From a bacterium (GTDB taxonomy: Bacteria; Actinomycetota; Acidimicrobiia; Spongiisociales; UBA5794), in the NCBI GenBank assembly GCA_024228555.1, contig JAAETI010000519.1, positions 1-64,000 on the forward strand: 64,000 nt of DNA, in the 5' to 3' direction. Numbering within the stretch: position 1 is the first letter of the stretch; each line of letters opens with the position of its first letter. A program made the position numbers and the translations under genes. This document shows positions 12,369 to 42,204 of this stretch, in pieces. The notes under the pieces are model-generated. The model was not told the origin of the DNA and searched no databases. It saw nothing but the letters and a program-made list of their open reading frames with translations.

Positions 12369-12396
12369 TCGTTTATGCTCCCGCTTCGTGGGCAGG

Positions 12397-12879
12397 CTAC
12401 TCCGCTTGGGTTGCCTGATCATCGTCGATGATGGTCTGGGTTGCTGCCGCCTGGGCGTCAGCAACCGCCTGGTGAATCGCAGGGTCATTGATGCCAAGGA
12501 TCTTGGCGGCGGCAAGTCCAGCACCACCCGGATCGAGCACCACCAGCGGGGCGATCCCTGATGGCATGCGGAGCGATGAGAATACGTCTGCTCCACCGAA
12601 ACGATCCGAGTACGGAGGACAAGCGATCACAGGCGATGTGACGTTGCCGTCGACGAGGCCGCTCAACGCATTGGAGCGGCCGGCGACGGTCACGTACACC
12701 TTGGGTCGTGGATCGGTCTCGTATTCGGCCAAGATCCCCAAGAGGAACACCGGCGCCTTGTGCGCAGAAGCGACCCTGATCTCGCTGGCGATGCCATAGC
12801 CACCGAGGGTGTTGGCGATCGCCTTCCCGTGGCTGAGGTCCGATTTCGAGCCCATGATGATCGGAACAAGTGGTTTCAT
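12397..12879 (-). CDS. purE: AIR carboxylase, class II PurE
   Basis: The 160-residue protein has Met-Gly-Ser-Lys-Ser-Asp-Leu near the start, Ser-Ala-His-Lys-Ala-Pro at about 38-43, and Ala-Gly-Arg-Ser-Asn-Ala-Leu-Ser-Gly. The Ser-Ala-His-Lys pattern in place of Ser-Ala-His-Arg-Thr, and the Gly-Arg-Ser-Asn loop, are those of class II enzymes (as in animal PAICS). These carboxylate AIR with CO2 directly and need no PurK. No purK lies in this operon, which agrees. It overlaps purC by 4 nt, in the PAICS order of PurC then PurE. Confidence 0.88.
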   Translation of the reverse strand: MKPLVPIIMGSKSDLSHGKAIANTLGGYGIASEIRVASAHKAPVFLLGILAEYETDPRPKVYVTVAGRSNALSGLVDGNVTSPVIACPPYSDRFGGADVFSSLRMPSGIAPLVVLDPGGAGLAAAKILGINDPAIHQAVADAQAAATQTIIDDDQATQAE

Positions 12880-21558: not shown

Positions 21559-21600
21559 CCCGAACTCAAGGTTTTGGGTCCAAGCGCCGATAATTCGGCC

Positions 21601-24129
21601 ATGATCCATCTCGTTCCTCACTATCGAGGGGCGCGTCTTGTAGTCGCGACCTCACTGCTCCTCGTCCTGGTTCCTTCTGCCGCGTTTGGCAGTGACGACG
21701 GGACAGCACCACCGGCCGTGGTCGAGGTCGCAGACCCCGACTGTCACACCGGCGACGACAACATCGAGTGCCATCAATCTGCAGCAAGCAAGATCGTCAT
21801 CACCGAGATCATGCAAAACCCGTCGATGGTGTGGGACTCGCTCGGGGAGTGGTTCGAGATCTACAACGCAGGATCAAAGCCTGTCGATCTGGCCGGGTGG
21901 ACCATCACCGACGAACTCGATAATCATCATGTGATTGCGGGTTCACTGGTGATTGGGCGAGGCGAGTACCTGATTCTTGGGAGCAACAGCAACGCTGCCA
22001 CCAACGGTGGAGTCGACGTCGGCTACTCGACCGGTAGTGACATCTTCCTGTTCAACAGCTCGGACCGGCTTGTACTGCGCAACGACCGAGACCGCGAGAT
22101 CGACCGTGTCGTCTGGGACAACGGCGCCACATTCCCCGACCCAAACGGTGCCTCGATGTCGCTGTCCAACATAGACGCAGACAATGCCATCGGGAGCAAC
22201 TGGTGCACCGCAACCACCGTCTTTGGCGACGGCGACCTCGGCACCCCGGGCCGCACGAACTCGTGTGCGACGGCACCGCCACTGCAAGTCACCGAGATCA
22301 TGCAAAACCCAAACGCAGTTTCGGATGTGCGGGGCGATTGGTTCGAGATCCACAACCCGACCGGCTCCGCCGTTGATTTGGCCGGGTGGACGATCAAGGA
22401 CGATGACGTTGACTCGCATGTCTTCACCGGTCCGCTGGCCGTGCCTGCAGGTGGCTATGTGGTGGTCGCTCGCAGCGGTGATTCCACCATCAATGGTGGA
22501 TTCACTGCCGACTACACGACAGGGTCAGAGATATTGCTGCACAACAACTTCGATGAGTTGATTCTGCTCGATCCAAACGGCATCCGGGTGGATCGTGTCG
22601 TATGGGATGACGGTCGCACCTTCCCCGACCCGACTGGTGCTTCGATGTCGCTGCGCGGTCTCGGATTGAACAACGGCATCGGCGGGAACTGGTGCAAGTC
22701 GACCACCCCATTTGGGCAGGGCGACCTGGGGACGCCCGGTACCGCCAACACCTGTGCCGAACCGACTGGCTCCCCGGCGATGGCGCGGCTCGAAATCACC
22801 GAGATCATGACCAATCCGAGTGCTGTTGTCGACAACGACGGCGAGTGGTTTGAGATCTACAACCGCGAAGCAACTCCGGTCGATATCGACGGATGGACGA
22901 TTCGCGACTTCGACACCAACGTCCACGTGATTGACAGTTCTTTGGTGATTCCGGCGTACGGCTATGCGGTGCTTGGTCGGAATGCTGACCAGGCAACAAA
23001 CGGTGGTGTCGCTGTGGATTACTCCTATGGCACCGACATGGTCCTCTACAACGCCGCCGATGAGGTCGTGATTGTCGACCCCAACGGGACGATCGTCGAT
23101 CAGGTTGCCTACGACGACGGCAGGACTTTCCCGGATCCTGACGGCTCGGCCCTGGCTCTCAAGAGTCTGGCCCTGCGTAACGACGTCGGCGACCACTGGT
23201 GTGCAGCGAACACCCCCTACGGTGATGGAGATGGCGGAACGCCAGGTGCACCGAACTCCTGCGGGCCCGGCGTACCTCTGGCCCCACTGGTGATCAATGA
23301 GATCATGCTGAATCCGGCGAGCGTTCCCGACTCAGTCGGGGAATGGTTCGAGATCTTCAACCCAACCTCGAATACTGTGGACATTGACGGTTGGATCATC
23401 CGCGACGACGATTTCAACCACCACGTCATCGACAATGGTGGGTCGCTGCTGATCGACCCAGGCGGCTACCTGGTCTTGGGTCGCAACAGTTCCGTCTATT
23501 CCAATGGCGGGGTTCAACTCGACTACCGGTATGGCACCGGCATGGTGCTCTACAACGCTGACGATGAACTCATCCTCATCGATTCGAACTACGTCGAGGT
23601 GGATCGGGTGGAGTGGGACGATGGTGTGACCTTCCCTGATCCGTTGGGAGCTTCAATGAGCCTCACCGATCCTGCGTTGGACAATGCCGTCGGCTCCAAT
23701 TGGTGCATTTCTGGCAGCAGATATGGTCCCGCCGAAAAGGGCACCCCCGGTGCGGCCAATGAGTGCGGCCCGGCTTGCGATGTCGACGGGTTGACGGTGA
23801 CCGTCACCGCTACCCCCAATACGTTGTGGCCGCCGAACGGTCGTATGCATCACGTCACCACGGAGGTGTCTGTACAGGACGAAGAGCCGGGGACCGTGAT
23901 CCGGCTCGTCGATGTTGTCTCCGACGAGGCTGACCCGGGCAAGGGGAAACGGCATCCCGACATCGTCATCATTGATGACTTCAACTTCGAGCTACGTGCC
24001 GAGCGCAACGGGTGGGAAGACGGTCGGGTATACACGATCACTTATGAGGTGGCAGCCCCATGTGGCGGCACCGGTCTGTACTCAACAACGGTCACCGTGG
24101 TTCATGACCAAGGTCACGGCGCCTACTAG
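21601..24129 (+). CDS. Secreted protein with four tandem lamin-tail domains
   Basis: The protein has 842 residues. A signal peptide (Leu-Val-Val-Ala-Thr-Ser-Leu-Leu-Leu-Val-Leu-Val-Pro-Ser-Ala-Ala-Phe-Gly) is followed by four copies of a unit of about 165 residues starting near residues 65, 229, 397 and 563. Each unit opens with Thr/Asn-Glu-Ile-Met-x-Asn-Pro, Gly-Glu/Asp-Trp-Phe-Glu-Ile and Val-Asp-Leu/Ile-Ala/Asp-Gly-Trp. Each closes with Asp-Arg-Val-Val-Trp-Asp, Phe-Pro-Asp-Pro, Asn-Trp-Cys and Gly-Thr-Pro-Gly-x-x-Asn-x-Cys. That is the bacterial lamin-tail domain, a beta sandwich found on surface and secreted proteins. The last 118 residues hold Leu-Trp-Pro-Pro-Asn-Gly-Arg-Met-His, typical of a C-terminal Ig-like module. 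No nuclease or anchor domain is seen. GATAAT 6 nt ahead of the ATG suggests a leaderless start. Confidence 0.88.
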   Translation: MIHLVPHYRGARLVVATSLLLVLVPSAAFGSDDGTAPPAVVEVADPDCHTGDDNIECHQSAASKIVITEIMQNPSMVWDSLGEWFEIYNAGSKPVDLAGWTITDELDNHHVIAGSLVIGRGEYLILGSNSNAATNGGVDVGYSTGSDIFLFNSSDRLVLRNDRDREIDRVVWDNGATFPDPNGASMSLSNIDADNAIGSNWCTATTVFGDGDLGTPGRTNSCATAPPLQVTEIMQNPNAVSDVRGDWFEIHNPTGSAVDLAGWTIKDDDVDSHVFTGPLAVPAGGYVVVARSGDSTINGGFTADYTTGSEILLHNNFDELILLDPNGIRVDRVVWDDGRTFPDPTGASMSLRGLGLNNGIGGNWCKSTTPFGQGDLGTPGTANTCAEPTGSPAMARLEITEIMTNPSAVVDNDGEWFEIYNREATPVDIDGWTIRDFDTNVHVIDSSLVIPAYGYAVLGRNADQATNGGVAVDYSYGTDMVLYNAADEVVIVDPNGTIVDQVAYDDGRTFPDPDGSALALKSLALRNDVGDHWCAANTPYGDGDGGTPGAPNSCGPGVPLAPLVINEIMLNPASVPDSVGEWFEIFNPTSNTVDIDGWIIRDDDFNHHVIDNGGSLLIDPGGYLVLGRNSSVYSNGGVQLDYRYGTGMVLYNADDELILIDSNYVEVDRVEWDDGVTFPDPLGASMSLTDPALDNAVGSNWCISGSRYGPAEKGTPGAANECGPACDVDGLTVTVTATPNTLWPPNGRMHHVTTEVSVQDEEPGTVIRLVDVVSDEADPGKGKRHPDIVIIDDFNFELRAERNGWEDGRVYTITYEVAAPCGGTGLYSTTVTVVHDQGHGAY

Positions 24130-25307: not shown

Positions 25308-26684
25308 TCAGCGACTGCGGACGTGATACATCGTGCGGGTGTCGCTTACCTCGACCTTGGTGAGAATCTCGCCGTGTGCCATCGCAGTCTCTTCGAAGAG
25401 GTCACGTGTGTACGGGGCAAGATCCGATGTCCGGCTCGCCGAGATACGCTGCGCCATGGGGTCGGCGAGGTCAACGAACTCAACGACGGCTTCTTCGCTG
25501 AACTCGAATATCTGGGCGACAACCTCGGTGAGCGGAATGCCTATTCCAAGACATAGGTGATGCAAGACGGCAAGCCACGCAGAGAAGGTGGGGTGGACGC
25601 GATCGGTGAATGCGGCCCGCTCCTTGCCACGCCAACCGAAAGCCGGCGTCGGATTTGTGATGTCAACGACAAGCGGGGTTAGGTTGTCGAGCTTTGCCTC
25701 TTTGGTTGAGTCATACAGTGCGTCGATTGCACCTTGGTCGTTGTCGATGCCGATGACGCGTGTGAACTGTTCGCTGAGAATTCTCGTGAACAGGCCGGCG
25801 TTGGCACCCACATCGACAGCCAGGTCGTGCGATGAGGCCGCGGCAGCCGCCTCACGGACGAACTCAGCCTTGGCATCGGTTGCCTCGATCTCGTAGGGCA
25901 AAGCTTCCTCGTAGTCTCCCCAGGTGCTGGGGGCTGCGGACTCGAGATCGGCGATGAGGTCGCGGAGTTTCTTCATGGTTCCGGCCACAGCCGACGCTGG
26001 GAGGGACGCTTTTCCAACATCGCGACGCTCCGCGGTGGCCATGCCAGCTGCCCGGCGCTCCAGCATGCTGCGCAGCCGAACGTGGGTCAGGATTCCTTTG
26101 TGGATGCCGGCGCGGCCTCGTAGCAAGCGGTTGAGGTCGCCGATGGGCACCCCGTCGGTCTTGCCATGAAGCATCCTTTGGAAAGGGATGCCTGCGTACG
26201 CCTCGAGCATGATGGGGGCGAGAAAGTGGTCGCAGAACTGCCCGTAGGCGGTCCAGATCCCACGCTCACCAAACTTGTCGATCGATGCGATGTCGATGAT
26301 TGTCGGAGCGACGCCGTCAAAGACGATATTGAAGGCAGACGCGTCCTTGAGGATGAATCCTTTTTCGAGGCAGAGCAGGTTGGCGTCCAGGGTGAGCAAG
26401 GCAGCGTCGCGCAGCATCGAGAACGACCACTCGGACGGGTAGCTCATGACCGCCAGACGTGTCGATTCGATCACGGCTTGATCGGGAATGCCGGCTGGCG
26501 GCTTGACGTCGTCGACGACCCAGTTCTTGACGAAGAGACCTTTTTCGACCAACTGGTCCATCAACCCGGTGCTGCGCGCAGCAGCATCGATCTCGGCTGC
26601 TTCGCCGGCGAGGCCGCGCAACACACGGTCGTCCTGATAGAAGACCCGTGCGGTGGGGTCGCGGAAGGATCCAGATTCGATCAT
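25308..26684 (-). CDS. Class I SAM-dependent methyltransferase with kinase-like N-terminal domain
   Basis: The protein has 458 residues. The C-terminal half has the SAM-binding motif Leu-Ala-Val-Asp-Val-Gly-Ala-Asn-Ala-Gly-Leu-Phe-Thr at 288-300 and the acidic end of strand 2 in Gly-Ile-Asp-Asn-Asp near 312-316. The N-terminal half contains Lys-Asp-Ala-Ser-Ala-Phe-Asn-Ile-Val-Phe-Asp-Gly at 113-124, then Ile-Ile-Asp-Ile-Ala-Ser at 129-134. That has the spacing of a protein-kinase-fold catalytic Asp-x4-Asn plus metal-binding Asp, so a kinase-like or pseudokinase domain is possible. The start overlaps the small membrane protein gene by 4 nt, and the sulfatase-like cluster lies upstream, so a role in envelope glycan or lipid modification is inferred. 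Confidence 0.75.
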   Translation of the reverse strand: MIESGSFRDPTARVFYQDDRVLRGLAGEAAEIDAAARSTGLMDQLVEKGLFVKNWVVDDVKPPAGIPDQAVIESTRLAVMSYPSEWSFSMLRDAALLTLDANLLCLEKGFILKDASAFNIVFDGVAPTIIDIASIDKFGERGIWTAYGQFCDHFLAPIMLEAYAGIPFQRMLHGKTDGVPIGDLNRLLRGRAGIHKGILTHVRLRSMLERRAAGMATAERRDVGKASLPASAVAGTMKKLRDLIADLESAAPSTWGDYEEALPYEIEATDAKAEFVREAAAAASSHDLAVDVGANAGLFTRILSEQFTRVIGIDNDQGAIDALYDSTKEAKLDNLTPLVVDITNPTPAFGWRGKERAAFTDRVHPTFSAWLAVLHHLCLGIGIPLTEVVAQIFEFSEEAVVEFVDLADPMAQRISASRTSDLAPYTRDLFEETAMAHGEILTKVEVSDTRTMYHVRSR

Positions 26685-26884
26685 TCGGAGGAAGAGGCCT
26701 CTTCTGCCATCTCCTCGGCATTGAGGATCTCTTCTGAGGGCTCGGTTTGCGTCCTTGTCTTGCGGCGCAGTTTGTTCATTCTGAGCTTGGTCAGACCCGC
26801 GATTCCGGCAGTGCCGGCCAGGGCGAGTTGAACGAGGGTCGCCCCGGTCCCGGGGTCGAGGTATAGGAGTACAGGGTCGAGCAT
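26681..26884 (-). CDS. Small membrane protein with Leu-Asp-Pro-Gly-Thr-Gly motif
   Basis: The 67-residue protein starts with Leu-Leu-Tyr-Leu-Asp-Pro-Gly-Thr-Gly, then one hydrophobic helix, a basic stretch (Lys-Leu-Arg-Arg-Lys-Thr-Arg) and an acidic tail. Tiny proteins with this opening commonly precede methyltransferase or sulfatase-like glycan genes. AAAGGA stands ahead of the ATG. It overlaps the methyltransferase gene by 4 nt, so the two products are probably made together. Confidence 0.65.
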   Translation of the reverse strand: MLDPVLLYLDPGTGATLVQLALAGTAGIAGLTKLRMNKLRRKTRTQTEPSEEILNAEEMAEEASSSE

Positions 26885-27012
26885 CGATGTCCTTTCGTCA
26901 TCAGTGTCTTCGGCACAGATGCCGGAGAGTTGAGCAAGATTATTCCGCCACAGTGGTGACTAGTCTGCCGCGATAGTATCTCGAATCGGCCGATTAGGCC
27001 GATATTGAGCGA

Positions 27013-28563
27013 CTACTTGGTGAGGCGCGGCCCTACGTCGACCACCACGCCGGCGATATCGGTTGGCGCCCAGTACATTTCGTCGGTCACTGCATCCAGT
27101 CCGGCATCGATGGCGCAGTTGGTGGCCACCCGCATCCCGTTTACAGGCGTCAGCTCTGGGTAAATCGCCTCGTCGCACCCGGGGAGCCGATATGCGGAGA
27201 AAATCTCCATTCGTGGTGCGATTTCGTCATCGGTCCACTCAGAGATGGGCGTTTCTTCACTGCGGGTGAGTTCGGTGCCGTGGTCCCCCGTGATCATGAT
27301 CACTGTATCGCTGCGTGCCGCGAGGATCTCGTCGAGGGCATCAAGCACGGTCGCGTTGGTGCAGATGAGCTGATCGACGTAGTAGGGACGGCGTTCGTCC
27401 AGCACATCAGGATCGGTAACTCGGAGCGGTCGCCGATTTGTGTCTGACTGCCGATTGCACGCCGAGTCAAGAAGAAGGGGAGGGTGCGGCAGGATGACGT
27501 GTGCCACCGTCAAGCGGGGAACACCGTCCTTCCGATCGATCTCGACGACTTCTGGCAGGTGCTTCAAGTTGTCGTACGAAATCGTGTTGAAGGTGTGGGG
27601 GCGGATGTCGCTCAGTAGCGGAGCAAGAATCGTCAGCCGGCTGAGATTCCACAGCGCTCGTTCGGCGATGCCGTCGCGCCAGCAAGCATCGACAGCACCA
27701 CCGCAATAGGAGCCCGTCCAAGCGTTCTCTGCGAAGGCAACGTCGTACCCGCGCTCGTGGAAGAGTCGGTACAGCTCCGGATCGCCCGAAAGGGACTTAC
27801 GCATCAGAGAGAGTTCAGCTTCGGAAATCTCGCCGACGTCAAAGACGTAGTCGAGATTGAGCATGCTGGAGAGAGCAGCGTAGGTGAATGCGTAGTTGGC
27901 TTTGGCGTCCATGGCTATTTCGAAGCCGCGCTCCTTTAGTGAGGAATAGAAGGCACTGTTGTCGTAATCGAAGTTCTCCATCAGGATTCGATCACCTGCG
28001 TATCCGTCCAACACCAGCAATAGGACATCGGGTGATCCTGGTGCCGCCGTCACGGTCGCCACCGGCTCAGGCGAGCCGTTCACCCGGGGTGCGGCTGTGA
28101 CCGCCGACACGGCAACGATGGCAACTGTGCTGACCATGAGAAGGACAGCGAACACTCTGTCCCCGGCTAGTCGAATCGCCAACCACAGCAGCGCGACCGC
28201 CAGAAGTACAGGGAGGACGTCTGAGATGATGCCTATGTTGAGCGCATCCGCGATCCGGTCCCCAGTTCTGGTCAAGGCCGGCCACTGGAAGAAGGCGAGG
28301 GTCGTGGCTGTTGCCACGCCGAGAGCCCAGCGGATCCGCGACTGCAGACCTCGCGAGAGGATCACGAGCAGAATCACGCTGAAGATGAGAACGAACAGCG
28401 ACATAGCAACGCCGAGCGCGATCCGGATCGACATTGGGCTCTCCCCGACAACCCATTGCATTCCGGGTGTCATCGCCGTCAACACAAACGGAATCACCCA
28501 AAGGATCACGGGCAGGTCGGACTCCGAGTGCTCGGGTGGGGGTGCTGTCGATTCTTGATTCAT
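27013..28563 (-). CDS. Membrane-anchored sulfatase/phosphoglycerol-transferase-like protein, paralogue 1
   Basis: The protein has 516 residues: five hydrophobic helices in the first 165, then an alkaline-phosphatase-superfamily domain outside the membrane. Metal-ligand candidates are Asp in Asp-Val-Leu-Leu-Leu-Val-Leu-Asp-Gly-Tyr near 185-194 and Asp-His in Met-Ile-Thr-Gly-Asp-His-Gly-Thr-Glu near the C-terminus. A Thr/Ser-rich block (Phe-Thr-Tyr-Ala-Ala-Leu-Ser-Ser-Met-Leu) holds the likely nucleophile. His-Val-Ile-Leu-Pro-His-Pro-Pro-Leu-Leu-Leu-Asp is shared by all three paralogues. LTA-synthase-like enzymes of this type move phosphoglycerol or related groups onto envelope glycans. It is the last of the tandem array. 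Confidence 0.75.
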   Translation of the reverse strand: MNQESTAPPPEHSESDLPVILWVIPFVLTAMTPGMQWVVGESPMSIRIALGVAMSLFVLIFSVILLVILSRGLQSRIRWALGVATATTLAFFQWPALTRTGDRIADALNIGIISDVLPVLLAVALLWLAIRLAGDRVFAVLLMVSTVAIVAVSAVTAAPRVNGSPEPVATVTAAPGSPDVLLLVLDGYAGDRILMENFDYDNSAFYSSLKERGFEIAMDAKANYAFTYAALSSMLNLDYVFDVGEISEAELSLMRKSLSGDPELYRLFHERGYDVAFAENAWTGSYCGGAVDACWRDGIAERALWNLSRLTILAPLLSDIRPHTFNTISYDNLKHLPEVVEIDRKDGVPRLTVAHVILPHPPLLLDSACNRQSDTNRRPLRVTDPDVLDERRPYYVDQLICTNATVLDALDEILAARSDTVIMITGDHGTELTRSEETPISEWTDDEIAPRMEIFSAYRLPGCDEAIYPELTPVNGMRVATNCAIDAGLDAVTDEMYWAPTDIAGVVVDVGPRLTK

Positions 28564-28570
28564 AAGGCTG

Positions 28571-30112
28571 TTACTCGCTCATTAGGTGTTCGATGTTGAT
28601 CACTGTCCCCTGCAACGAACCCGGTGCCCAGAAGTGACGGTCTGGCATCTGAGTCAGGCCCGCATCCAACGCACAGTTGGCGAGGGCGCGGGCTCCGTTT
28701 ACCGGTGTGATGGTCTCGTAGACGTCGGTGCACCCGGGGAGACGGTAGGCGCTGAGAATGCTCATACGCTCGACGATTTCAGGATCGGTCCATTCGGTGG
28801 ATACTCCAGCAACCCGGGTCGAGTCTGAACCGTGGTCGCCGGTGATCATGACGAGGGTGTCGGCTCTGCTTTCGAAGATCTCGGTCAATGATTCGACGAC
28901 CAAATCGTTGGTGCACTTCATCTGCTCGACGTAGTAGCCAAGCCGTGGCTCGATGTCATCGGGATCGGATACCCGCAGATCCTCGCGATCAGCCCCCTTG
29001 TGACGGTTGCAGTCGGCGTCGAGCAAGAGTGGTTGATGCGGCAGCAAGATGTGGGCCACCGTTAGCCGGGGGACGCCCTCGGTGCGTTGGCTCTCAACCA
29101 ATTCTGGGAAAGCTTCCAGGTGGTCAAGAGACACGGAATTGAACGGGTGGGGGAGTACGGGGGCAACAAGTGGCGCAAGAATCGTCATTCTGCCCGTTGC
29201 CCACAACGCGGACTCGAATAGTCCCTTTCGCCAGCACACATCGGTAGAGCTTCCGCATGCGGAGCCGGACCAGGGGTTCTGGATGTAGGCAATCTCGTAG
29301 CCCTGCTCGTGGAAGCGGCGGAACAACTCGGGGTCTCCCGTGAGCGCATTGCGCATAGCTTCGTACTCAACCGGGCCGATTTCGCCGAGTTCGAACACGT
29401 AGTCGAGTTCGAACATGGAGGAGATCGAGGCGTACGTGTATCCGTAGTTGGAACGGGCTTCGCTGGCGACGTTAAACCCCAGCGTCTCTAACTCCGTAGT
29501 GAACGGTGAGTTGTCGTATCCGAAGCGGCTATCAAGCACGTCGGCCCCGGAGTAGCCGTCGAGGATCATCAGTAGGACGTCGGGTGACCCCTCAGCCGCG
29601 ACCGCGGCTCGGGTGCTGTTTGGCTCGTTCGATACCCGGCTTTGGGCATTGATGAAGAGTGCGCCGCAGACAATCAGCAGCGCGACGCTGAGGATGGAGG
29701 CAAATGGCCACTCGCCACCTATCCGGTTGGCCACCCAGAGGAAGCCAACCGCCAGGACCAGCGGAAGGACGTTGCTGGTAAACGGGATACGAACCGCATC
29801 GGCCACGACATTTCCGACATTCGTGAGTTGTGGCCAGTGGAAGAGCACAAGCACGGTCATCGCCGTCACGCCCATTGACCATCGAACTCGGTGCTTGAAC
29901 CCTCGAGAGAGGATCGCCAACAGGAACACAGCGACGACGCCAACGATTGTCGCCATCGCGAGGACGAGACCATAGCGAGGGGCCATCGGGCGTTCGCCCG
30001 CCACCCACTCGAGCCCTGGCATGATTGCTGCCAGCACCAGCGGAACGGCCCACAGGATCATCGGAGTGCCGGACCTGGAATTCTCGGAGATGGGCTCGGG
30101 CGGGTGGTTCAT
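28571..30112 (-). CDS. Membrane-anchored sulfatase/phosphoglycerol-transferase-like protein, paralogue 2
   Basis: The 513 residues align with paralogue 1 throughout: membrane segments begin at Ile-Leu-Trp-Ala-Val-Pro-Leu-Val-Leu-Ala, the catalytic domain at Ser-Pro-Asp-Val-Leu-Leu-Met-Ile-Leu-Asp-Gly-Tyr, followed by Tyr-Thr-Tyr-Ala-Ser-Ile-Ser-Ser-Met-Phe-Glu-Leu-Asp-Tyr and Val-Met-Ile-Thr-Gly-Asp-His-Gly-Ser-Asp. Only 7 nt separate it from paralogue 1 and 15 nt from paralogue 3, so one transcript is expected. It most likely arose by tandem duplication. A different acceptor or donor specificity per copy is a guess. Confidence 0.75.
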   Translation of the reverse strand: MNHPPEPISENSRSGTPMILWAVPLVLAAIMPGLEWVAGERPMAPRYGLVLAMATIVGVVAVFLLAILSRGFKHRVRWSMGVTAMTVLVLFHWPQLTNVGNVVADAVRIPFTSNVLPLVLAVGFLWVANRIGGEWPFASILSVALLIVCGALFINAQSRVSNEPNSTRAAVAAEGSPDVLLMILDGYSGADVLDSRFGYDNSPFTTELETLGFNVASEARSNYGYTYASISSMFELDYVFELGEIGPVEYEAMRNALTGDPELFRRFHEQGYEIAYIQNPWSGSACGSSTDVCWRKGLFESALWATGRMTILAPLVAPVLPHPFNSVSLDHLEAFPELVESQRTEGVPRLTVAHILLPHQPLLLDADCNRHKGADREDLRVSDPDDIEPRLGYYVEQMKCTNDLVVESLTEIFESRADTLVMITGDHGSDSTRVAGVSTEWTDPEIVERMSILSAYRLPGCTDVYETITPVNGARALANCALDAGLTQMPDRHFWAPGSLQGTVINIEHLMSE

Positions 30113-30127
30113 GAGTTCAGCACTCGC

Positions 30128-31687
30128 TCAGTCGCTCAAGCGCGGGGCGATATCTGTCACTGAGCCCTTGCCATCGTTGGGGGACCACAGTACGGCGTCG
30201 TCCAAGAAATCGAGTTCCACGTCGAGAACACAGTTGGTCATGGCTCGCGCTCCGTTGACTGGTGTGATCGACGGATATGTGAAGCTCTCGCAACCCGGCA
30301 TTCGGTATGCGCTCAGGATGCTCATACGTTCGGCGATTCCAGCATCGCTCCACTCCTCGACAGGCTCGTTGGCCAGCCGAGTGGACCCTGATCCATGGTC
30401 GCCGGTGATCATGATCACCGTGTCGGGTCGATCGGCAATGATCTGCTGGAGAGATTCGAGGAGCTTGTGGTTGGTGCAGGTTGCCTGAGCCACATAGAAG
30501 TCGCGACGGTTTTCGATCAGCTCAGGACTTGCCGTTGTGAACGCACGACGTACCGCGGTGTTCTGCCGTTCGCACTCAGCGTTGAGCAGAAACGGGGGAT
30601 GAGGCAAGATCAGGTGAGCAAACGTGAGACGAGGGACTCCCGGTGTTCGGTCTGCGGAGACGTAGGTGGGTAGTGATTCCAGCTGTTCCAGCGACACGGT
30701 ATTGAACGGATGTGGTCGTGTCGCAGTCAATATCGGTGCCATGATCGTGACCTGGCCGAGGTTCCAAAGCACACGTTCGACTAGGCCATCTCGAATGCAG
30801 ATGTCGACGGCCGCACCGCAATGTGATCCCTGCCACGCATTCTCGACGTATGCGAACTCGTAGCCACGCTCACGGAATTGCTCTGGTAGTGCTCCGTTGC
30901 CTGCGAGGGAGTTCCGCATGGTCTCGTGGTGTCGATCGGTCACCGGACCGATCGGGTAGGCGTAGTCGAGATCAAGCATGCTTGCGATGGAAGCGTAGGT
31001 GAAGCTGTAGTTCGGCCGAGCTTCGGTAGCTATCTGGAATCCAAGTTGCTCGAGTTCGCTCAACCAGGGGGTGGTGTCGAAGCCAAACTGTGTTTCCAGT
31101 ATGTCAGCTCGGGTATAGCCGTCCATGACGATCAGTACGACATCGGGCGATCCATCGCGAGCAGACATTTCCTGTGCGGTTGGTGTCGAGCGATCGACGT
31201 ATGGAAGCGTGTTGACCAGAAGGACGACAACGATGAGCCATGTACCAAATCCAGTGATGGCTGCGAACGGCCATTCTCCGCCGATTCTGGTGGCAACCCA
31301 CAGGAAAGCGACCGCAAGAATCACCGGGAAGGCATCGGCGAGGAACGGCAAAGGCACCGCGGCCTCGAATACCCTGCCCACGTAGGTCAGCGTTGGCCAC
31401 TGAAAAGCGACCAGTACCGCCATCGTTGCAACCGAGGTTGACCACCTAATACGCCGCCTGAAGCCATTCGAGACTGCCGCGAGAAGCAGCAATCCAGTCA
31501 ACGCGACGACCCCAGTCATCGCTAGAGCGAGCTCGACTCGTGCCGCCATAGGTCGCTCTGCGATCATCCAGACCAGGCCCGGGATCAGGATCACTGCAAT
31601 GAGCGGCACAACCCAAAGGACCAAGTGGACATCTGACTCCACCGGCGGGTCGTCGGGAGTCGCATGAGGGTCGGGTTTGAGGCTCAT
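30128..31687 (-). CDS. Membrane-anchored sulfatase/phosphoglycerol-transferase-like protein, paralogue 3
   Basis: The 519-residue protein has the same five-helix anchor and catalytic domain: Ser-Pro-Asp-Val-Val-Leu-Ile-Val-Met-Asp-Gly-Tyr, Phe-Thr-Tyr-Ala-Ser-Ile-Ala-Ser-Met-Leu-Asp-Leu-Asp-Tyr, and Val-Ile-Met-Ile-Thr-Gly-Asp-His-Gly-Ser. The start at 31687 aligns best with the short N-termini of the other two copies. An in-frame ATG at 31744 overlaps the ABC permease stop by 8 nt and sits just behind GGAGG, so translation coupled to the transporter is the alternative. Confidence 0.72.
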   Translation of the reverse strand: MSLKPDPHATPDDPPVESDVHLVLWVVPLIAVILIPGLVWMIAERPMAARVELALAMTGVVALTGLLLLAAVSNGFRRRIRWSTSVATMAVLVAFQWPTLTYVGRVFEAAVPLPFLADAFPVILAVAFLWVATRIGGEWPFAAITGFGTWLIVVVLLVNTLPYVDRSTPTAQEMSARDGSPDVVLIVMDGYTRADILETQFGFDTTPWLSELEQLGFQIATEARPNYSFTYASIASMLDLDYAYPIGPVTDRHHETMRNSLAGNGALPEQFRERGYEFAYVENAWQGSHCGAAVDICIRDGLVERVLWNLGQVTIMAPILTATRPHPFNTVSLEQLESLPTYVSADRTPGVPRLTFAHLILPHPPFLLNAECERQNTAVRRAFTTASPELIENRRDFYVAQATCTNHKLLESLQQIIADRPDTVIMITGDHGSGSTRLANEPVEEWSDAGIAERMSILSAYRMPGCESFTYPSITPVNGARAMTNCVLDVELDFLDDAVLWSPNDGKGSVTDIAPRLSD

Positions 31688-31736: not shown

Positions 31737-32561
31737 TCAACCATCGCCTCCAAATCCGAGCAGGCTTTCCCTACTGAGCGATCGTGACCCGGTCATGAGT
31801 CCAATAATGGCCAGAATCCATGCCACGATCCCGATTCCGAAAGCTGCAATAACCGGGTTGATGAGCAGACCGCTCGAAACCCCGTAGGCGGCGAATATAA
31901 CGGGTAGCGAGACCAATGTGGCTGCTTGCTGGGCGGCTGCGGTGCTGCGTACTTTCGACGAGACCCACAGGATGACGGAAAGGGCGAGGGCGATAAATGG
32001 GGGGACCACCCACACGATAAGGATCCACCAGCCAGCCGTTGGGAAGAACCATCCACCGACCAGGGGGCCGACCTTCATGTTGACTAGCAATGAGTAGATA
32101 GCGAATCCGACGCCGGTGGCCAGGAAGCCGGGAACAAGGCTCGCCAGCATCTTGCCCATGAATATCTCACGCTCTGTCAATGGGGAGTGGGCCAAAAACT
32201 CGCCGGTGCCTCGCTCCCTCTCTCCGACGATGGCGTGGGCACCGACCGCCGAGGAGATGGTCAGCGGCACCACGATCGCGACCGGGGCCAATAGGTACAC
32301 CGAAAGCATGTAGGCGCCTCGGGCTGCTGGTGTCGTTCCCACAACATTCTCCTGGACCGGTCCGGGTAGCGTCTGCAGCACTTCACCGATCTTATTGACC
32401 AGGTCGCTGCTCGTCGTTGAGGTCACAATCGTGAGCAGGAGAAACGGCAGACCGATGAAGAACACCGACGCCAGGAAGCCCATCGGTATCCAATAATCCT
32501 TGCTCTTGAAGAGTCGGCGCAGATCGATCCGAGCCACGGTCAGCATGCGATCCCACCTCAT
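31737..32561 (-). CDS. ABC-2 type transporter permease
   Basis: The 274-residue protein has a cytoplasmic N-terminus (Leu-Arg-Arg-Leu-Phe-Lys-Ser-Lys-Asp-Tyr-Trp) and about six hydrophobic segments. Between helices 2 and 3 it has a conserved coupling region Gly-Glu-Arg-Glu-Arg-Gly-Thr-Gly-Glu-Phe-Leu-Ala-His-Ser-Pro-Leu-Thr, typical of ABC-2/Nat-type export permeases. It overlaps the ATPase gene by 4 nt, so the pair forms one exporter. The cargo is unknown; adjacency to the sulfatase-like array makes an envelope component plausible. Confidence 0.85.
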   Translation of the reverse strand: MRWDRMLTVARIDLRRLFKSKDYWIPMGFLASVFFIGLPFLLLTIVTSTTSSDLVNKIGEVLQTLPGPVQENVVGTTPAARGAYMLSVYLLAPVAIVVPLTISSAVGAHAIVGERERGTGEFLAHSPLTEREIFMGKMLASLVPGFLATGVGFAIYSLLVNMKVGPLVGGWFFPTAGWWILIVWVVPPFIALALSVILWVSSKVRSTAAAQQAATLVSLPVIFAAYGVSSGLLINPVIAAFGIGIVAWILAIIGLMTGSRSLSRESLLGFGGDG

Positions 32562-33475
32562 GATTGCCCCCGCAGTGATCGCTGCATCTCGAAGTAGAGC
32601 GTTTCAAGCGTCGGGTTGTCGGGTTCGACCCTGGTGATTCGTGCCCCGGCGCCAACCAGGTCGGCGACGAGGCCGGGGAGACGATCAATGTGGGTCAACC
32701 GAACGTGAAGAGCGCCGTTCCACTCGGCTGAGACAACATCGTCGTGACGACTGAGGGCGGACAGGGAGTCGCGGTCCTCTGCATCGATAATGACGGCAGG
32801 ATTGGTGACGTATCGGTCGGCGAGATCGAGCTGACTGCCCACAATCTGCGCCTGGCCGGCTCCCATGAGCACGACCTGATCGGCAACACCTTCAGCCTCG
32901 TGGAGAAGGTGGGTGCACAGAACGATTGTCCTACCTCTGCCGGCCAGTTCCCTGATGAGGTTTAGGACGGCGCGGGCGGACTCTGGGTCGAGTCCTGCCG
33001 TCGGTTCATCCAGGAGAAGGACATCGGGGTCATGGAGGACAGCCCGAGCCAATGCCAATCGGGTTCTCATGCCTGTCGAGTAGCCGCCAACGTTGAGATC
33101 CAGAGCGTGATCTATGCCAAAGCGTTCGGCAGCTGGCTTGATGCCTTTGTGGTCCGCACTAAAGATATCGGCGGTGAAGGTGAGGTTTTCCCATCCCGTC
33201 AGGTTGTCGTATAGCGCAGGTTTTGGGGGAACGACGGCGCAGCGTGACCGCACCTCATTGCCTGCGATCAGCGGGTCGAGCCCTAAGACCTCGATGGAAC
33301 CTTCGTCGGAGCCCAAAGCTCCGGTGGCGAGCCGTACGGTTGTTGTCTTCCCGGCCCCGTTCGGGCCGAGCAGAACCGTTATCGAACCCTCGGGGACTTC
33401 AAGGCTCAGGTCGTCGACTGCCGTGATGTCACCAAATGTTCTGGTGACGTGGGAGAACGCTAGTGCTGTTGGCAT
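32558..33475 (-). CDS. ABC transporter ATP-binding protein
   Basis: The 305-residue ATPase has Walker A Gly-Pro-Asn-Gly-Ala-Gly-Lys-Thr at about 37-44 and the signature Gly-Tyr-Ser-Thr-Gly-Met-Arg-Thr-Arg-Leu-Ala-Leu-Ala. Walker B is Asp-Val-Leu-Leu-Leu-Asp-Glu-Pro-Thr-Ala-Gly-Leu-Asp-Pro, and the switch His is in Leu-Cys-Thr-His-Leu-Leu-His-Glu-Ala-Glu. A C-terminal domain of about 90 residues follows, as in multidrug/Nat-type exporters. It lies 47 nt downstream of glgB on the same strand. Confidence 0.92.
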   Translation of the reverse strand: MPTALAFSHVTRTFGDITAVDDLSLEVPEGSITVLLGPNGAGKTTTVRLATGALGSDEGSIEVLGLDPLIAGNEVRSRCAVVPPKPALYDNLTGWENLTFTADIFSADHKGIKPAAERFGIDHALDLNVGGYSTGMRTRLALARAVLHDPDVLLLDEPTAGLDPESARAVLNLIRELAGRGRTIVLCTHLLHEAEGVADQVVLMGAGQAQIVGSQLDLADRYVTNPAVIIDAEDRDSLSALSRHDDVVSAEWNGALHVRLTHIDRLPGLVADLVGAGARITRVEPDNPTLETLYFEMQRSLRGQS

Positions 33476-33522: not shown

Positions 33523-35382
33523 CTATGCCGGGGTCAAAAAGACCCCAGTGAGTGGCGGTACTGTGACCGTGATCGAACGCTCAAAGCCGTGGCTGGGCAC
33601 CAGCCCAGCGCTGAGGGTTCCTGGATTGATGATCCCGCTGCCGCCGTAGCGAAGATCGTCGCCGTTGAGGACCTCTTTCCAGTCAGCGTCGCCGGGCACA
33701 CCAAGCCGATAGTCGTGGCGTACTACCGGGGTGAAATTGGCTACAAAGAGCAGCGGATTGCCGCTGCTGTCGAGCCGCAAGAACGCATAGACGCTGTTGG
33801 CGTCGTCGTTGCCGACCACCCACTGAAACCCGCTCGGATCTGAATCTCTCTCGTGGAGCGCCGGGTTCTCCCTCATCAGGCTATTGAGGTCAGAAACCCA
33901 CCGTGTCACCCCCACGTTCTCATCAGCGGCCGCCACGGCCCAGTCAAGCTCTTGCTCGTGGTTCCACTCGTCGGCCACGCCGAACTCGCTGCCCATAAAC
34001 AGGAGTTTCTTACCGGGTTGGGCCCACTGGTACGCATAGAGCAAGCGAAGGCCTGCGAATTGCTGCCAGCGATCACCCGGCTGCTTGTTCAGCAGCGACC
34101 CCTTGCCGTGTACAACCTCATCGTGTGACAGCGGAAGCGTGAAGTTCTCGTTGAATGCGTAAACCATGCGGAAGCTGAGAACGTCGTGGTGATGGCGTCG
34201 GTGGACCGGGTCCTTCGACACGTATCGCAACGTATCGTTCATCCAGCCCATGTCCCACTTCTGGCCGAACCCGAGCCCGCCGTAGTCGGTGGGGTGGGTG
34301 ACCATCGGGAAGGCGGTCGACTCTTCGGCGTACATCTGGATATCGGGGTAGCGGGCGTATGCGTTCGTGTTGATGAGCTGCAGCAGCGAAATGGCGCCGA
34401 GGTTCTCTCTCCCCCCGAACTCATTTGGAATCCATTCGCCCTCTTTGCGGGAGTAGTCCCGGTAGAGCATCGAGGCCACAGCATCAACGCGGATACCGTC
34501 GGCGTGGTATTTGTCGAGCCAGAACAGTGCGCTTGACAGGAGGAAGCTCCGCACTTCGAACCTGTCGTAGTTGAAGATGAGGCTGTCCCAGTCCGGGTGG
34601 TAACCGAGTTGGGGGTCGCTGTGTTCGTAGAGGTGGGTTCCGTCAAACGCGGCCAAACCGTGGGCGTCCGAAGGGAAGTGCGACGGGACCCAATCGAGAA
34701 TGACCCCGATTCCCTTCTGGTGCAGGTAGTCCACGAAGTACATCAGGTCTTGCGGCGTGCCGTACCGCGACGTTGCCGCAAAGTAGCCGGTCGACTGGTA
34801 GCCCCACGATCCGTAGAAAGGATGCTCCATAACCGGGAGCAATTCGACGTGGGTAAAGCCGGTCTCCAGTACGTAGTCGGCAAGCTGATGGGCGATCGCC
34901 CGGTAGCCGCCGGGCTCATATCGCCACGAGCCGAGATGTACTTCGTAGATCGAGATCGGTGAGTCGTAGGCGTTCTTATCGCCCCTTGTCTTCATCCAGG
35001 CTTCGTCGGCCCATTCGTAATCGAGATCCCAGACCACAGATGCGGTGCGTGGAGGCTCCTGGGCTCGGAACGCAAACGGGTCCGCTTTGTCGAATGCAGG
35101 ACCTTCTGCAGGTGTGATTCGGTACTTGTAGATCTCGCCTTCTTCGATTCCGGGGATGTGACCGCTCCAGATACCGGAGCGGTCAGGGTTGAGCGCCCAG
35201 CCATCTTCCCAAGAGTTGAAGTCGCCGATCACTTCGACCCTGGTGGCCGAGGGTGCCCAAACTCGAAAGGTGGTGCCACTCTTGTCGGAGTGCGCACCGA
35301 GTATCTCGTACAGGGAGGTGTGGGTACCGCCGTTGAATGACCAGCGATCGTCGTCCGTCAGGATGCGGGGAGTTTGCGTCAT
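33523..35382 (-). CDS. glgB: 1,4-alpha-glucan branching enzyme
   Basis: GlgB makes alpha-1,6 branches in glycogen. The 619 residues comprise a CBM48 module (about 25-110), the GH13 barrel and a C-terminal beta domain. The catalytic residues are visible: nucleophile Asp300 in Asp-Gly-Ile-Arg-Val-Asp-Ala-Val, acid/base Glu353 in Tyr-Ala-Glu-Glu-Ser-Thr, and Asp421 in Ser-His-Asp-Glu-Val. It lacks the extra N-terminal domain of the long E. coli-type enzyme. TATTTT 6 nt ahead of the ATG points to a leaderless transcript. It is divergent from glgC. Confidence 0.95.
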   Translation of the reverse strand: MTQTPRILTDDDRWSFNGGTHTSLYEILGAHSDKSGTTFRVWAPSATRVEVIGDFNSWEDGWALNPDRSGIWSGHIPGIEEGEIYKYRITPAEGPAFDKADPFAFRAQEPPRTASVVWDLDYEWADEAWMKTRGDKNAYDSPISIYEVHLGSWRYEPGGYRAIAHQLADYVLETGFTHVELLPVMEHPFYGSWGYQSTGYFAATSRYGTPQDLMYFVDYLHQKGIGVILDWVPSHFPSDAHGLAAFDGTHLYEHSDPQLGYHPDWDSLIFNYDRFEVRSFLLSSALFWLDKYHADGIRVDAVASMLYRDYSRKEGEWIPNEFGGRENLGAISLLQLINTNAYARYPDIQMYAEESTAFPMVTHPTDYGGLGFGQKWDMGWMNDTLRYVSKDPVHRRHHHDVLSFRMVYAFNENFTLPLSHDEVVHGKGSLLNKQPGDRWQQFAGLRLLYAYQWAQPGKKLLFMGSEFGVADEWNHEQELDWAVAAADENVGVTRWVSDLNSLMRENPALHERDSDPSGFQWVVGNDDANSVYAFLRLDSSGNPLLFVANFTPVVRHDYRLGVPGDADWKEVLNGDDLRYGGSGIINPGTLSAGLVPSHGFERSITVTVPPLTGVFLTPA

Positions 35383-35394
35383 GGCTGCAAAATA
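35383..35394 (-). promoter_or_regulatory. Leaderless promoter -10 element of glgB
   Basis: On the minus strand TATTTT (35394-35389) is followed by GCAGCC and the ATG at 35382. Confidence 0.45.
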
Positions 35395-35458
35395 ACGCGA
35401 TCCGAGGCCCGCTGCATAACTCGGGAGCGATGAAGACAGTTATGGAGGTCGCATTCGA

Positions 35459-36727
35459 GTGTGCCAATATGTGCACATGCATACACGCTCATCATCGCCG
35501 AAGGTCATATCCATGGTTCTTGCCGGTGGGCAAGGGACCCGACTACTCCCCCTCACCTCGGTCCGAGCGAAACCTGCTGTGCCCTACGGTGGCCAGTACC
35601 GCCTGATCGACTTTGCGCTCTCCAATCTTGCAAATGCCGGTTACCGCAAGATCGTCGTGCTCACCCAATACAAGAGCCACAGCCTCGATGTTCACTTGTC
35701 GACCACGTGGCGGATGTCGACGTTCCTTGGCAACTACGTTGTCTCGGTGCCGGCGCAGATGCGGCGGGGTCCGCAGTGGTTTGCCGGCTCTGCCGATGCC
35801 ATCTTCCAGAACATGAACCTCATCGATGACGAACATCCCGACTACATATTCGTCTTCGGCGCCGACCATATCTATCGCATGGATCCGACCCAGATGCTGC
35901 AGCATCACATCGATAGCGGCGCAGGGGTCACTGTTGCAGGGATTCGGGTGCCGCGCGACGAGGCAAGCGCATTTGGCGTCATCCAGCGCAACCCACATTC
36001 GTCCATGATCGATGCGTTTCTGGAGAAGCCAGCCGACCCTCCTGGCCTCGCCGACAGCCCGGATGAGGTGCTCGCCTCGATGGGCAACTACTTCTTCAGC
36101 AGCGATGTGCTTGTCGATGTCCTCAATGCCGACGCCGAAGACAAGCAGTCGGGGCGCGATCTTGGTGGTGACATTATTCCGGCGCTGGTGTCGTCTGGCC
36201 AAGCCCATGTCTATGACTTCACTACCAACGTGGTCCCCGGTGAGACTCCGCGGGACCGCCACTACTGGAGGGACGTCGGGACGCTCGACTCGTATTACGA
36301 AGCCAATATGGATCTCGTCGCTCCGCACCCCGTGTTCAATCTGTACAACAACGACTGGCCCGTGTTCACCTCGTTCCGTACGTTGCCTCCGGCCAAAGTG
36401 GTCGCCCACGGCGAGTACGGTTCAGGTGACATCGCCAATTCTGTGCTTTCTCAGGGCTGCATCGTCACCGGGGCGACCGTGCACGATTCGGTGCTTTCGC
36501 CAAATGTTCGGATCGAACCAGGGGCAGTTGTCGAAGGCTCCATCTTGTTCGATGATGTGCACATTGGTGCCAATGCCACCGTTCGCAACGCCATCGTCGA
36601 TAAGCACGTGGTGATTCCCCGCAACCGTGAGATTGGTACCACTCCGGATCGGGATGCCGAGGAGTTTGTGATCTCGCCCAACGGAATCATCGCCATCGGC
36701 AAGGGCCACAAGGTCAAGTACGCCTAG
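35459..36727 (+). CDS. glgC: Glucose-1-phosphate adenylyltransferase
   Basis: GlgC makes ADP-glucose, the donor for glycogen synthesis. It has 422 residues. The nucleotide-binding motif is [10 protein letters not shown] near 20-29. Lys-Pro-Ala-Val-Pro-Tyr-Gly-Gly and Gly-Ser-Ala-Asp-Ala-Ile-Phe-Gln-Asn follow, then the catalytic Gly-Ala-Asp-His-Ile-Tyr-Arg-Met-Asp. A left-handed beta-helix tail has Gly-Ala-Val-Val-Glu-Gly-Ser and Lys-Val-Lys-Tyr-Ala at the end. The GTG at 35459 stands 10 nt behind GGAGG (35444-35448); an ATG at 35477 is the alternative start. It ends 1 nt before the glgA stop on the other strand. Confidence 0.95.
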
Positions 36728-36728
36728 C

Positions 36729-38104
36729 TCAGAGTGCGAGGAGTTCCTCGTAGAGATCGATATGGCGCTGGGCGGGACGTTGCCACGACCAATCTCTGGC
36801 CATGCCCCGCCGCTGGATGGCACCTCGTCGCTGCTTGTGTCGCCACGCTCGTCCGGCGCGATGGAGTACGTCGACTATCCCTGGCACCTCGGCGGTCGTC
36901 GCCAGGAACCCGGTTCCGTTCTTGCGGTCGGCGTCGGCGTCGATGACCGTGTCGTGAAGGCCTCCGACATCGGTGACCACCGGGATGGTCCCGTACGCCA
37001 TGGCCTGCATCTGCGCCAGCCCACACGGCTCGAACCGGCTTGGCATCAGAAGCAGATCGGACCCGGCAAAGATTGTGTGTGCTAGCTGCTGGTTGTATCC
37101 ATCGGCGAAGAACATGTTGTCGGGCCAGTTCCCGCTTGCCCAGTGGGCCCACTCGGACAGTCGTTGCTCGCCCGAACCGAGCATGACCAGCCGATATGGG
37201 ACCCCGGCGGCGTAGCGCACCGACTCAAGCGCGAGGTCGATACCTTTTTGCTCTACAAGCCGAGTGACCATGCCCACCAGCGGCGTGCCGTCGTCGGTCC
37301 ACCCAGCCTCCTTGTGTAGAGCCGCCCGCGATGACTCCTTGCCACTGAGGTCGGCGAGGCTGTAGTTGGCGGACAGTCTCTGGTCCGTTGCCGGATCCCA
37401 GATAGCGGTGTCGATCCCGTTGCGAATGCCGACGAGGTGATCACCGAGACCCGAGAGTATGTGGTCGAGACCCATCCCCGATTCCGGGCGTCGGATCTCG
37501 TCGGCGTAGTTGGGGCTGACTGCGATAACACGATCGGCGACTTGGATAGCCCCGGCAAGCGGATTGACGTCCCCGAAGCTCTCGAATGCTGAGAAGTTGT
37601 AGGGGATGCGGGGCAGCCATTCGGAGCCAGCCCATCCCTGATAGCCAAGGGTGTGAATGGTGAAGACGACCGGTGGGCGTTTGCGCAGAAAGGCAAGGGT
37701 GGCAGCGGTGTGCCAATCGTTTAGATGAACCACGTCAGGTCGGCTGGTTTGGGTGAGGTTGGCGACTGCAGCGGAAAAGGCGAAGAACCGTGCATCGTTA
37801 TCCGGCCAGCCGATGCCTGTTTCGTCAATGTACGGGTGGGAGCGGACGATCCCTGGGACCTTGACCAAGGTAACGTCGCCAACTCCTGCGGCCACACCGC
37901 GTCTGGCGGTCGCCGGCCGGGCCCATTTTGGAACCGTAACGTCACGTGGCCGTTCGTCTGTGAGTTCTGTTTCGCTGTAATCGGGGAGGATGAGATCGAC
38001 CGTGATCCCTGCCGCCCTGAGTGCGACCACGAGGCCGGCAGCTGCCTCAGCTAGGCCACCAACTCTGGCCATGGGAGTCAGTTCGGCGGTCGCAAAGAGG
38101 ACCT

Positions 38105-38108
<4 letters not shown>
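36729..38108 (-). CDS. glgA: Glycogen synthase (ADP-glucose type, GT5)
   Basis: The 459-residue enzyme starts Met-Lys-Val-Leu-Phe-Ala-Thr-Ala-Glu-Leu-Thr-Pro and has Arg-Val-Gly-Gly-Leu-Ala-Glu in place of the common Lys-Thr-Gly-Gly-Leu. Further landmarks are His-Leu-Asn-Asp-Trp-His-Thr-Ala, Thr-Ile-His-Thr-Leu-Gly-Tyr-Gln-Gly, the donor-site Thr-Arg-Leu-Val-Glu-Gln-Lys-Gly, and Pro-Ser-Arg-Phe-Glu-Pro-Cys-Gly-Leu. The start overlaps the glgX stop by 4 nt. The frame is open further upstream, inside glgX. Confidence 0.92.
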
Positions 38109-40209
<2,101 letters not shown>

Positions 40210-40213
<4 letters not shown>

Positions 40214-42204
40214 CTGCCTGCGGCTACCTGGTAGATCCGCTCGCCGTACTCCTTGACCATGCGTGAAGCAGTGACAAAGGGTCCGAGGGTCCTCCAATTG
40301 TGTCGAACCTTGTTGAGCCAATCCGCCGTTGGGGCAATGCCTCCGGGCCCGTAGAACAGAGGCGCAATCTCGTCGCCGAGGATGTCATAGAGAAGGCTGG
40401 CTTCCTCCCGATCCCGTTGCTGAGGATCGTCCGCAACCGATGACGGGATTGCCCAGCCGTTCTCGCCGTCAAAGCACTCGTCCCACCAGCCATCCAAGAT
40501 GGAGAAGTTGAGGCCGCCGTTCAGGGCAGACTTCTCGCCGCTGGTGCCACATGCTTCGCGGGGCCGCACCGGGTTGTTGAGCCAGACGTCGCAGCCGGCA
40601 TACATGGCTCTGGCGACAGCCATGTTGTACCCGGGTATGAAGATGAACCGGCCATTTGATGCTGGGTCGCCGGCAAACCTGACGATGTTGCGCAGCAAGT
40701 CCTTGCCGGGCTCGTCGGCGGGGTGGGCCTTCCCCGCAAAGACAAATTGCACCGGCCGGTCCCCATCATTGATCAGGGATGTGAGTCGCTCGATATCGGC
40801 GAGCAGCAGATCGGCACGCTTGTAGGTGGCGAAGCGACGAGCAAAACCGATCGTCAGAATGTCGGGGTCGAGGTTGGTTTCGTGGCCAAGCTGGCTGTTG
40901 GCCATGCTGATCATGCGTTGGCGACCACTGGCGAAAACGGTGCGAATCTCGTCGTCGCTGATTTCATCGACCTTGTTCCACGCATCGGCCGCAGGCAGAT
41001 GCCAGTCCGGGCCGAGCTTGTCATCGAAGACCATCTGCATTTCAGGATCGACCCAGGTGCGGGCGTGGATGCCATTGGTCACCGACGTGATCTCTGAACC
41101 GCCGGGTACCTCAGAGAACATGGCCCGGCTCACCTCGCCGTGAAGGCGGGAAACACCGTTGCAGCGACCCGCGATGCGCACGCAGAACGCCGCCATGTTG
41201 AAGTGATCGTCCCCGCCAGGGAGGATACCGAGTTTCAGCAGCTCGTCGAGGTCCACGCCGTAGCGATCGGCCCACACCCCGAGATACTTGCGCATGAGGT
41301 CCGGAGCAAACCGGTCGATGCCGGCGGGCACCGGCGTGTGGGTGGTAAAAACAATCCGTGTCCGGATGGCGGTCACCGCCTCGTCGAGGGTGAGGCCCTT
41401 TGCCACCTCTTCAGCCAGGAGCTCCAAAGCAAGGAATCCGGCATGACCCTCGTTGAGATGGAACTTCGCCGGCTCGTAGCCGAGTTGGCGAATGGCGCGC
41501 ACCCCGCCGACGCCCATCAGCAGCTCCTGGCGCATGCGGTGCTCCCGGTCGCCGCTGTAGAGACGATCCGAAACGCGACGCCCGAACTCGTCGTTGACAT
41601 CCAGGTCTGTGTCGAGCAGGAATAGCCGGGTTGTTCCGACGTTGGTGCGCCACACTCTGGCGGTGACTTGGCGGTCGGCAAGCTGGAGCTCGACGCGGGC
41701 GGGGGTGGCGGTGAGGGCGAGGAAGCGCGGGTTGTTGGTCACATATCGCTCGCGCTGCTGTCCGTCCTCGAGTGCCTGCCGGAAGAAGCCGTCGCGATAG
41801 AACAGCCCGACCGCCAGCAGGGGCATTCGCAGATCGCTGGCTGCTTTCAGGTGGTCTCCCGCCAACACTCCGAGGCCACCCGAGTACTGAGGCAGCATTT
41901 CTGAAACGCCGAACTCCGGACTGAAGTACGCAACGGTGGTCCCGTCGTTGATCTGGAGTGGTTTTGGGAGGTTGCTGTGGGCGTCTCTGGCCAGGGCGGA
42001 AAACTCAGCGTCGTTCGTCAGACGTTCCCAGTCCTCCTCGCTGAGAAGCTTGATGCGCTCTGCAGGGTGCAGGGCACCTTCCCCGTTGAGCGACGGGATT
42101 CGGTTGAACAGCTCTCGAGCCTGGAGATCCCAGGTCCACGAGTAGTTGCCGGCGACTTGGAGCAGTGTGCTCTCGAGCTCGTAACGGGATGTTTTCTCTT
42201 GCAC
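40210..42204 (-). CDS. glgP: Alpha-glucan phosphorylase, short GT35 form
   Basis: The 664-residue enzyme is of the shorter, Thermotoga/archaeal-like type rather than the 800-residue E. coli type. It has Ser-Pro-Glu-Phe-Gly, Tyr-Ser-Gly-Gly-Leu-Gly-Val-Leu-Ala-Gly-Asp-His, His-Leu-Asn-Glu-Gly-His-Ala-Gly-Phe, and Val-Thr-Asn-Gly-Ile-His. Arg-Arg-Phe-Ala-Thr-Tyr-Lys-Arg and the pyridoxal-phosphate region Gly-Thr-Ser-Gly-Glu-Lys-Ser-Ala-Leu-Asn-Gly-Gly follow. The start is a GTG. It releases glucose-1-phosphate from alpha-1,4 chains and sits between malQ (50 nt upstream) and glgX (overlapping). Confidence 0.93.

Follow-up and report, generated by a model that had tools for sequence, protein, structure and literature searches.

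A candidate surface-modification module of the NoeA/NoeB type, with three tandem NoeB-like enzymes and a small YLDPGTG protein, in a member of the Actinomycetota

What might three consecutive sulfatase-like membrane enzymes do together with a 67-residue protein and a methyltransferase that carries kinase-like features? This question is raised by a locus within a 64,000-nucleotide stretch of genomic DNA (hereafter the window), which a preliminary description had interpreted as an envelope module decorating a surface polymer. The genes of the locus and its two upstream neighbours are presented in Table 1. The three paralogues, described as lying 7-15 nt apart, are indeed arranged in tandem, with gaps of 15 nt between S1 and S2 and of 7 nt between S2 and S3. 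A further 128 nt separates S3 from the small gene, which shares an overlap of 4 nt with the gene for the kinase-methyltransferase. The start codon of S1 is probably the ATG at position 31687; the open frame extends to a TTG at 31753.

Table 1. Coordinates of the module genes and of the adjacent transporter genes in the window
Feature	Position	Strand	Evidence
S1, NoeB-like alkaline-phosphatase-superfamily membrane enzyme	30128..31687	-	PF00884, 31.6 bits; D/T/H/H/D/H catalytic set
S2, second NoeB-like copy	28571..30112	-	PF00884, 29.9 bits; AlphaFold model (pLDDT 85), alkaline-phosphatase fold
S3, third NoeB-like copy	27013..28563	-	PF00884, 25.9 bits; catalytic set intact
Small YLDPGTG protein (67 aa), probably membrane	26681..26884	-	Family alignment; genome-wide profile match
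NoeA-like kinase-methyltransferase	25308..26684	-	tblastn to rhizobial NoeA; alignment; model (pLDDT 83); methyltransferase fold matches
ABC-2 permease, genus-conserved neighbour	31737..32561	-	PF12679, 51.7 bits
ABC ATPase, DrrA-like, genus-conserved neighbour	32558..33475	-	PF00005, 95.6 bits

A tblastn search of plasmids with the kinase-methyltransferase returned 65 records, 57 of them from Sinorhizobium, with ~31% identity over 98% of the query. Judged from the alignment, the protein is a relative of NoeA, homologous over its full length. It comprises (i) a kinase-like part (residues 1-245), and (ii) a class I methyltransferase domain (residues 250-458) with the motif DVGANAG (291-297) and a His-His pair (HH375-376). 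The kinase-like Asp-x4-Asn and Asp residues (D114, N119 and D131) were invariant in 17 diverse NoeA-family sequences, as were D291, G293, N295, D314, H375 and H376 of the methyltransferase part, which bears out the kinase-like features ascribed to this methyltransferase in the preliminary description. In fold comparisons of the predicted structure, matches to the methyltransferase domain took up the lists, which accounts for the lack of kinases in them. A profile of the kinase part detected no protein kinase of this type in the PDB.

The methyltransferase-domain profile matched WbdD in the PDB (E 1.5e-4), with the invariant His-His pair aligned with WbdD H132/H133. In WbdD these two histidines, together with R203, are essential for methylating mannose phosphate (PMC3482155). 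Arg203 has no aligned equivalent in the NoeA-like profile, and R450 is a guess at its counterpart. Since a His-His or Tyr-Tyr pair is also present at this position in NodS and RebM, whose methylation targets are not phosphates, the WbdD-like pair is a lead rather than proof.

In Ensifer canadensis the tblastn match is annotated as noeA and is followed by noeB (sulfatase-like), while a 71-aa hypothetical protein and nodL are encoded before it. The 71-aa protein, which reads ...AHAYLDPGTGSMLVQ..., belongs to the same family as the 67-aa protein of the window. The order small gene-noeA-noeB was found on plasmids of Ensifer, Rhizobium, Novosphingobium and Sinorhizobium. On pSymA of Sinorhizobium meliloti and S. 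medicae, a YLDPGTG open frame lies directly upstream of noeA (L156:2751-2937 and L157:2751-2943, respectively); the gene table, itself incomplete, lists no gene at these frames.

The synteny of the set in relatives, a check put forward in the preliminary description, was confirmed. The 100 NoeA-like loci with sufficient flanking sequence came from the window's own order, from other Actinomycetota, from two further phyla and from plasmids; in 90 of them the small gene adjoins the NoeA-like gene (88 upstream, 2 downstream). Among 85 NoeA-like loci, 65 have a NoeB-like or longer sulfatase-superfamily gene no more than a few kb away. Because part of the 100 loci had served to train the small-gene profile, genome-wide co-occurrence provides a more independent test. 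In 60 relatives, 24 genomes had both genes, one NoeA only, two the small gene only and 33 neither (Fisher p 2e-13; a marginal NoeA-like match in G031, E 9e-4, was left out of this count), and the corresponding numbers for 296 Actinomycetota were 31, 3, 0 and 262 (p 6e-39); both p-values overstate independence, since the genomes are related. The module occurs in Actinomycetota, Acidobacteriota, Planctomycetota, Gemmatimonadota and Proteobacteria.

The small protein matches no Pfam or NCBIfam family, and a literature search for the YLDPGTGS motif found no paper on a YLDPGTG protein. The window genome contains a single copy of its gene (genome-wide search, E 3.6e-18). Of the earlier claim of a 67-residue membrane protein, the gene itself stands; the window's own sequence falls below a simple transmembrane threshold, and the membrane location is probable by reference to relatives with a clear signal peptide or hydrophobic stretch. 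Ten small genes were found away from NoeA, and nine of them have a NoeB-like enzyme or a longer member of the superfamily as their direct neighbour (two at L146 and one each at L147, L148, L150, L151, L153, L154 and L155, the exception being L149), which identifies the transferase as the constant partner of the small protein. At one locus (L046, genome G013) the NoeA-like gene directly overlaps the NoeB-like gene, and neither the locus nor the rest of the genome contains the small gene.

Two small-gene/NoeB-like pairs at L146, where NoeA is absent, flank a cluster (8023-12740) encoding a CTP-transferase/PEP-mutase fusion and a phosphonopyruvate decarboxylase (both above curated cut-offs), an Fe-alcohol dehydrogenase and a CDP-glycerol-phosphotransferase-like protein. 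This content fits a role in attaching phosphono- or phospho-alcohol groups to a polymer of the cell surface. A PEP mutase above the cut-off is lacking in the window genome, so that the phosphonate context is not directly transferable to the window.

S1, S2 and S3 show 48-50% pairwise identity (48/49% for S1 and S3 against S2), and NoeB is only about 20% identical to S2. All three narrowly passed the Pfam Sulfatase model PF00884 (25.9-31.6 bits; cut-off 25 bits). The membrane anchor which they were said to share is present, with four N-terminal hydrophobic segments in each copy. In the S2 model, six helices precede the catalytic domain, which has an alkaline-phosphatase fold. Its structural matches were sulfatases, at the top of the list, together with EptC, YejM/PbgA and LtaP (Z about 20-21; ~21 over 283 residues), and a phosphonate monoester hydrolase matched as well as the sulfatases did (Z 20-22). 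At the sequence level, a PDB search with the single S2 sequence gave no match, a profile of the S family gave weak matches to sulfatases and LtaS, and S1-S3 matched none of the family-specific Pfam or NCBIfam models (EptA N-terminal domain, LTA synthase equivalogs).

The catalytic Asp, Thr, Asp-His and two further His residues are kept in S1-S3; in S2 numbering, the acidic residue, the Thr nucleophile and the Asp-His metal site correspond to D185, T226, D426 and H427. The metal sites, which the preliminary description had also regarded as shared, have thus been lost in none of the copies. The formylglycine motif C/S-x-P-x-R was not matched in S1-S3, and the nucleophile column contains Thr. Across 71 NoeB-like or longer superfamily enzymes, the first Asp was found in 70 (one gap), and both His and the second Asp in all 71. 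The nucleophile was Thr in 61 and Ser in 9, and never Cys, and the last catalytic His column contained His in 58 and Glu in 13. Because the Asp/Thr/Asp/His set is kept and the Cys-x-Pro-x-Arg motif is absent, S1-S3 look like phospho-transferases; from their sequences, a transferase is more likely than a sulfatase, in line with the earlier view of a conserved, envelope-associated set of transferases. The difference in specificity which that view ascribed to the three copies is conjectural.

Other genomes of the genus contain one or two copies of the NoeB-like enzyme, and the transferase gene would have been duplicated to three in the window genome. A tree that included all three copies placed S2 and S3 with a fused homologue of G001 and left S1 unresolved; S2 and S3 therefore look older than the window species. 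Within the window's genus, at L044:7749-10535, a NoeB-like enzyme is fused behind a membrane glycosyltransferase domain that is weakly GT87-like (20.5 bits, below the cut-off).

The ABC exporter noted earlier upstream of the S1-S2-S3 array is present as an ATPase and a permease. Both belong to generic Pfam/NCBIfam families (DrrA-like ATPase and ABC-2 permease), and the polysaccharide-exporter reading was dropped for this reason. The pair occupies the same place beside the module in same-genus loci (L043, L044 and L058) and is not systematically found there outside the genus. No dedicated surface-polysaccharide genes were seen at the window locus. A glycogen cluster lies beside the module (33523-40321) and encodes GlgB, GlgC and a starch-synthase-type GlgA, together with a debranching-type enzyme recognized by eye only; in several relatives, a protein with a GlgB-like start adjoins the module. 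On the other side (21574-24129, plus strand), a gene encodes a secreted-looking protein of 851 aa, which contains four repeats of the Lamin Tail Domain (PF00932, 252 bits).

We interpret the locus as a NoeA/NoeB-type surface-modification module that would place phosphate-containing groups onto surface molecules, with a probability of roughly 0.55. In the chemistry, order of steps and substrate that we infer, the first step is probably the phosphorylation of a (lipid-linked) sugar or polyol in the cytoplasm by the kinase-like domain of the NoeA-like protein, and the methyltransferase domain probably then methylates that phosphate, by analogy with WbdD acting on O9a mannan. The membrane-anchored NoeB-like enzymes, with their extracytoplasmic alkaline-phosphatase-type domain, would act on a glycan or lipid of the surface, adding a phosphate-linked group or removing it, in a step which the fold and the catalytic set liken to that of phosphoethanolamine or phosphoglycerol transferases. 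The YLDPGTG protein is kept with the NoeB-like enzyme even where NoeA is absent, and may therefore be its dedicated partner; the association is observed, and a physical interaction is suggested by it. A bolder proposal, which we hold tentatively and would not bet on at even odds, is that there is a widespread, unrecognized class of two-part extracytoplasmic phospho-transferases, each made up of a NoeB-like enzyme and the YLDPG[TS]GS protein as an obligatory subunit, with NoeA as an optional supplier of a methyl-phosphate group. The classic nodulation operon would consequently contain an overlooked fourth gene essential for NoeB.

The NoeB-like enzymes might instead be phosphodiesterases or phosphatases, with NoeA making a phosphorylated intermediate (surface or lipid) and the NoeB-like enzymes trimming it: the alkaline-phosphatase superfamily includes both hydrolases and transferases, the S2 fold matches sulfatases and the phosphonate monoester hydrolase equally well, and the catalytic set is compatible with either activity. 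We consider such a role unlikely, though worth keeping in mind, since the multi-helix membrane anchor and the Thr nucleophile resemble transferases of the EptA/LtaS type, and both the GT87-like fusion and the CDP-glycerol-transferase-like neighbour fit synthesis. In EptA and LtaS, a Thr nucleophile is likewise combined with Asp-His ligands. A second possibility is that the module modifies a secreted small signal, along the lines proposed for Nod factors or Legionella effectors, and not an envelope polymer. The genes noeA and noeB, located in the nodL operon, were reported in 1995 as host-range nodulation genes (cited in PMC9758233), and Lani_1194 is listed in that paper as a Legionella effector; however, the module is common among bacteria only distantly related to rhizobia and its NoeB-like part is membrane-anchored, which makes a Nod factor-like or effector-like target rather improbable. 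That S1-S3 are true sulfatases stripping sulfate esters from glycans for nutrition, as their best Pfam family and top structural matches might indicate, was rejected as highly improbable, since the formylglycine motif is missing from every copy, 70 of the 71 relatives have a Thr or Ser nucleophile, and all three carry a transmembrane anchor.

The surface-modification reading extends what is already known of the NoeA/NoeB neighbourhood. In its treatment of the NoeA family, PMC9758233 presents a biochemically uncharacterized unit of kinase-methyltransferases whose neighbours are conserved, with a NoeB partner of the alkaline-phosphatase fold. The Lani_1194 family described there, from Legionella and other bacteria, is the same NoeA family, with both domains and a conserved neighbour of the alkaline-phosphatase fold; in that description the small protein is not presented as a partner of the NoeB-like enzyme. 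New here are the finding that the small protein is paired with the transferase, the recognition of its gene within the nodulation operon, the link to WbdD through the His-His pair, and the triplicated array of the window genome, the named relatives of which belong to the Acidimicrobiia. The preliminary description had missed both the NoeA/NoeB identity and the constant pairing of the small protein with the NoeB-like family. The genes noeA and noeB are part of a module whose range extends well outside the rhizobia, in which the small protein travels with the NoeB-like enzyme, and their role can be given a concrete chemical guess, namely sugar-phosphate methylation coupled with extracytoplasmic phospho-transfer.

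Of the other known systems, WbdD of E. coli O9a (PMC3482155) combines a kinase and a class I methyltransferase in one protein, as does the NoeA-like protein of the window. No overall homology between the two was detected; WbdD is arranged as methyltransferase-kinase-coiled-coil, whereas the window protein has the reversed order, with the kinase-like part first, and has no coiled coil or C-terminal extension. The phosphoethanolamine transferases EptA, EptC and MCR, as well as LtaS/LtaP and YejM/PbgA, resemble S1-S3 in having N-terminal transmembrane helices followed by an alkaline-phosphatase domain, with only distant sequence similarity. The window differs from the nodL-noeA-noeB operon (nod box n5) of Sinorhizobium/Ensifer in that its NoeB-like genes, three in number, precede the rest of the set, and in having neither nodL nor a nodulation context; however, that operon encodes the small YLDPGTG protein, NoeA and NoeB in order, and thereby matches the set found in the window.
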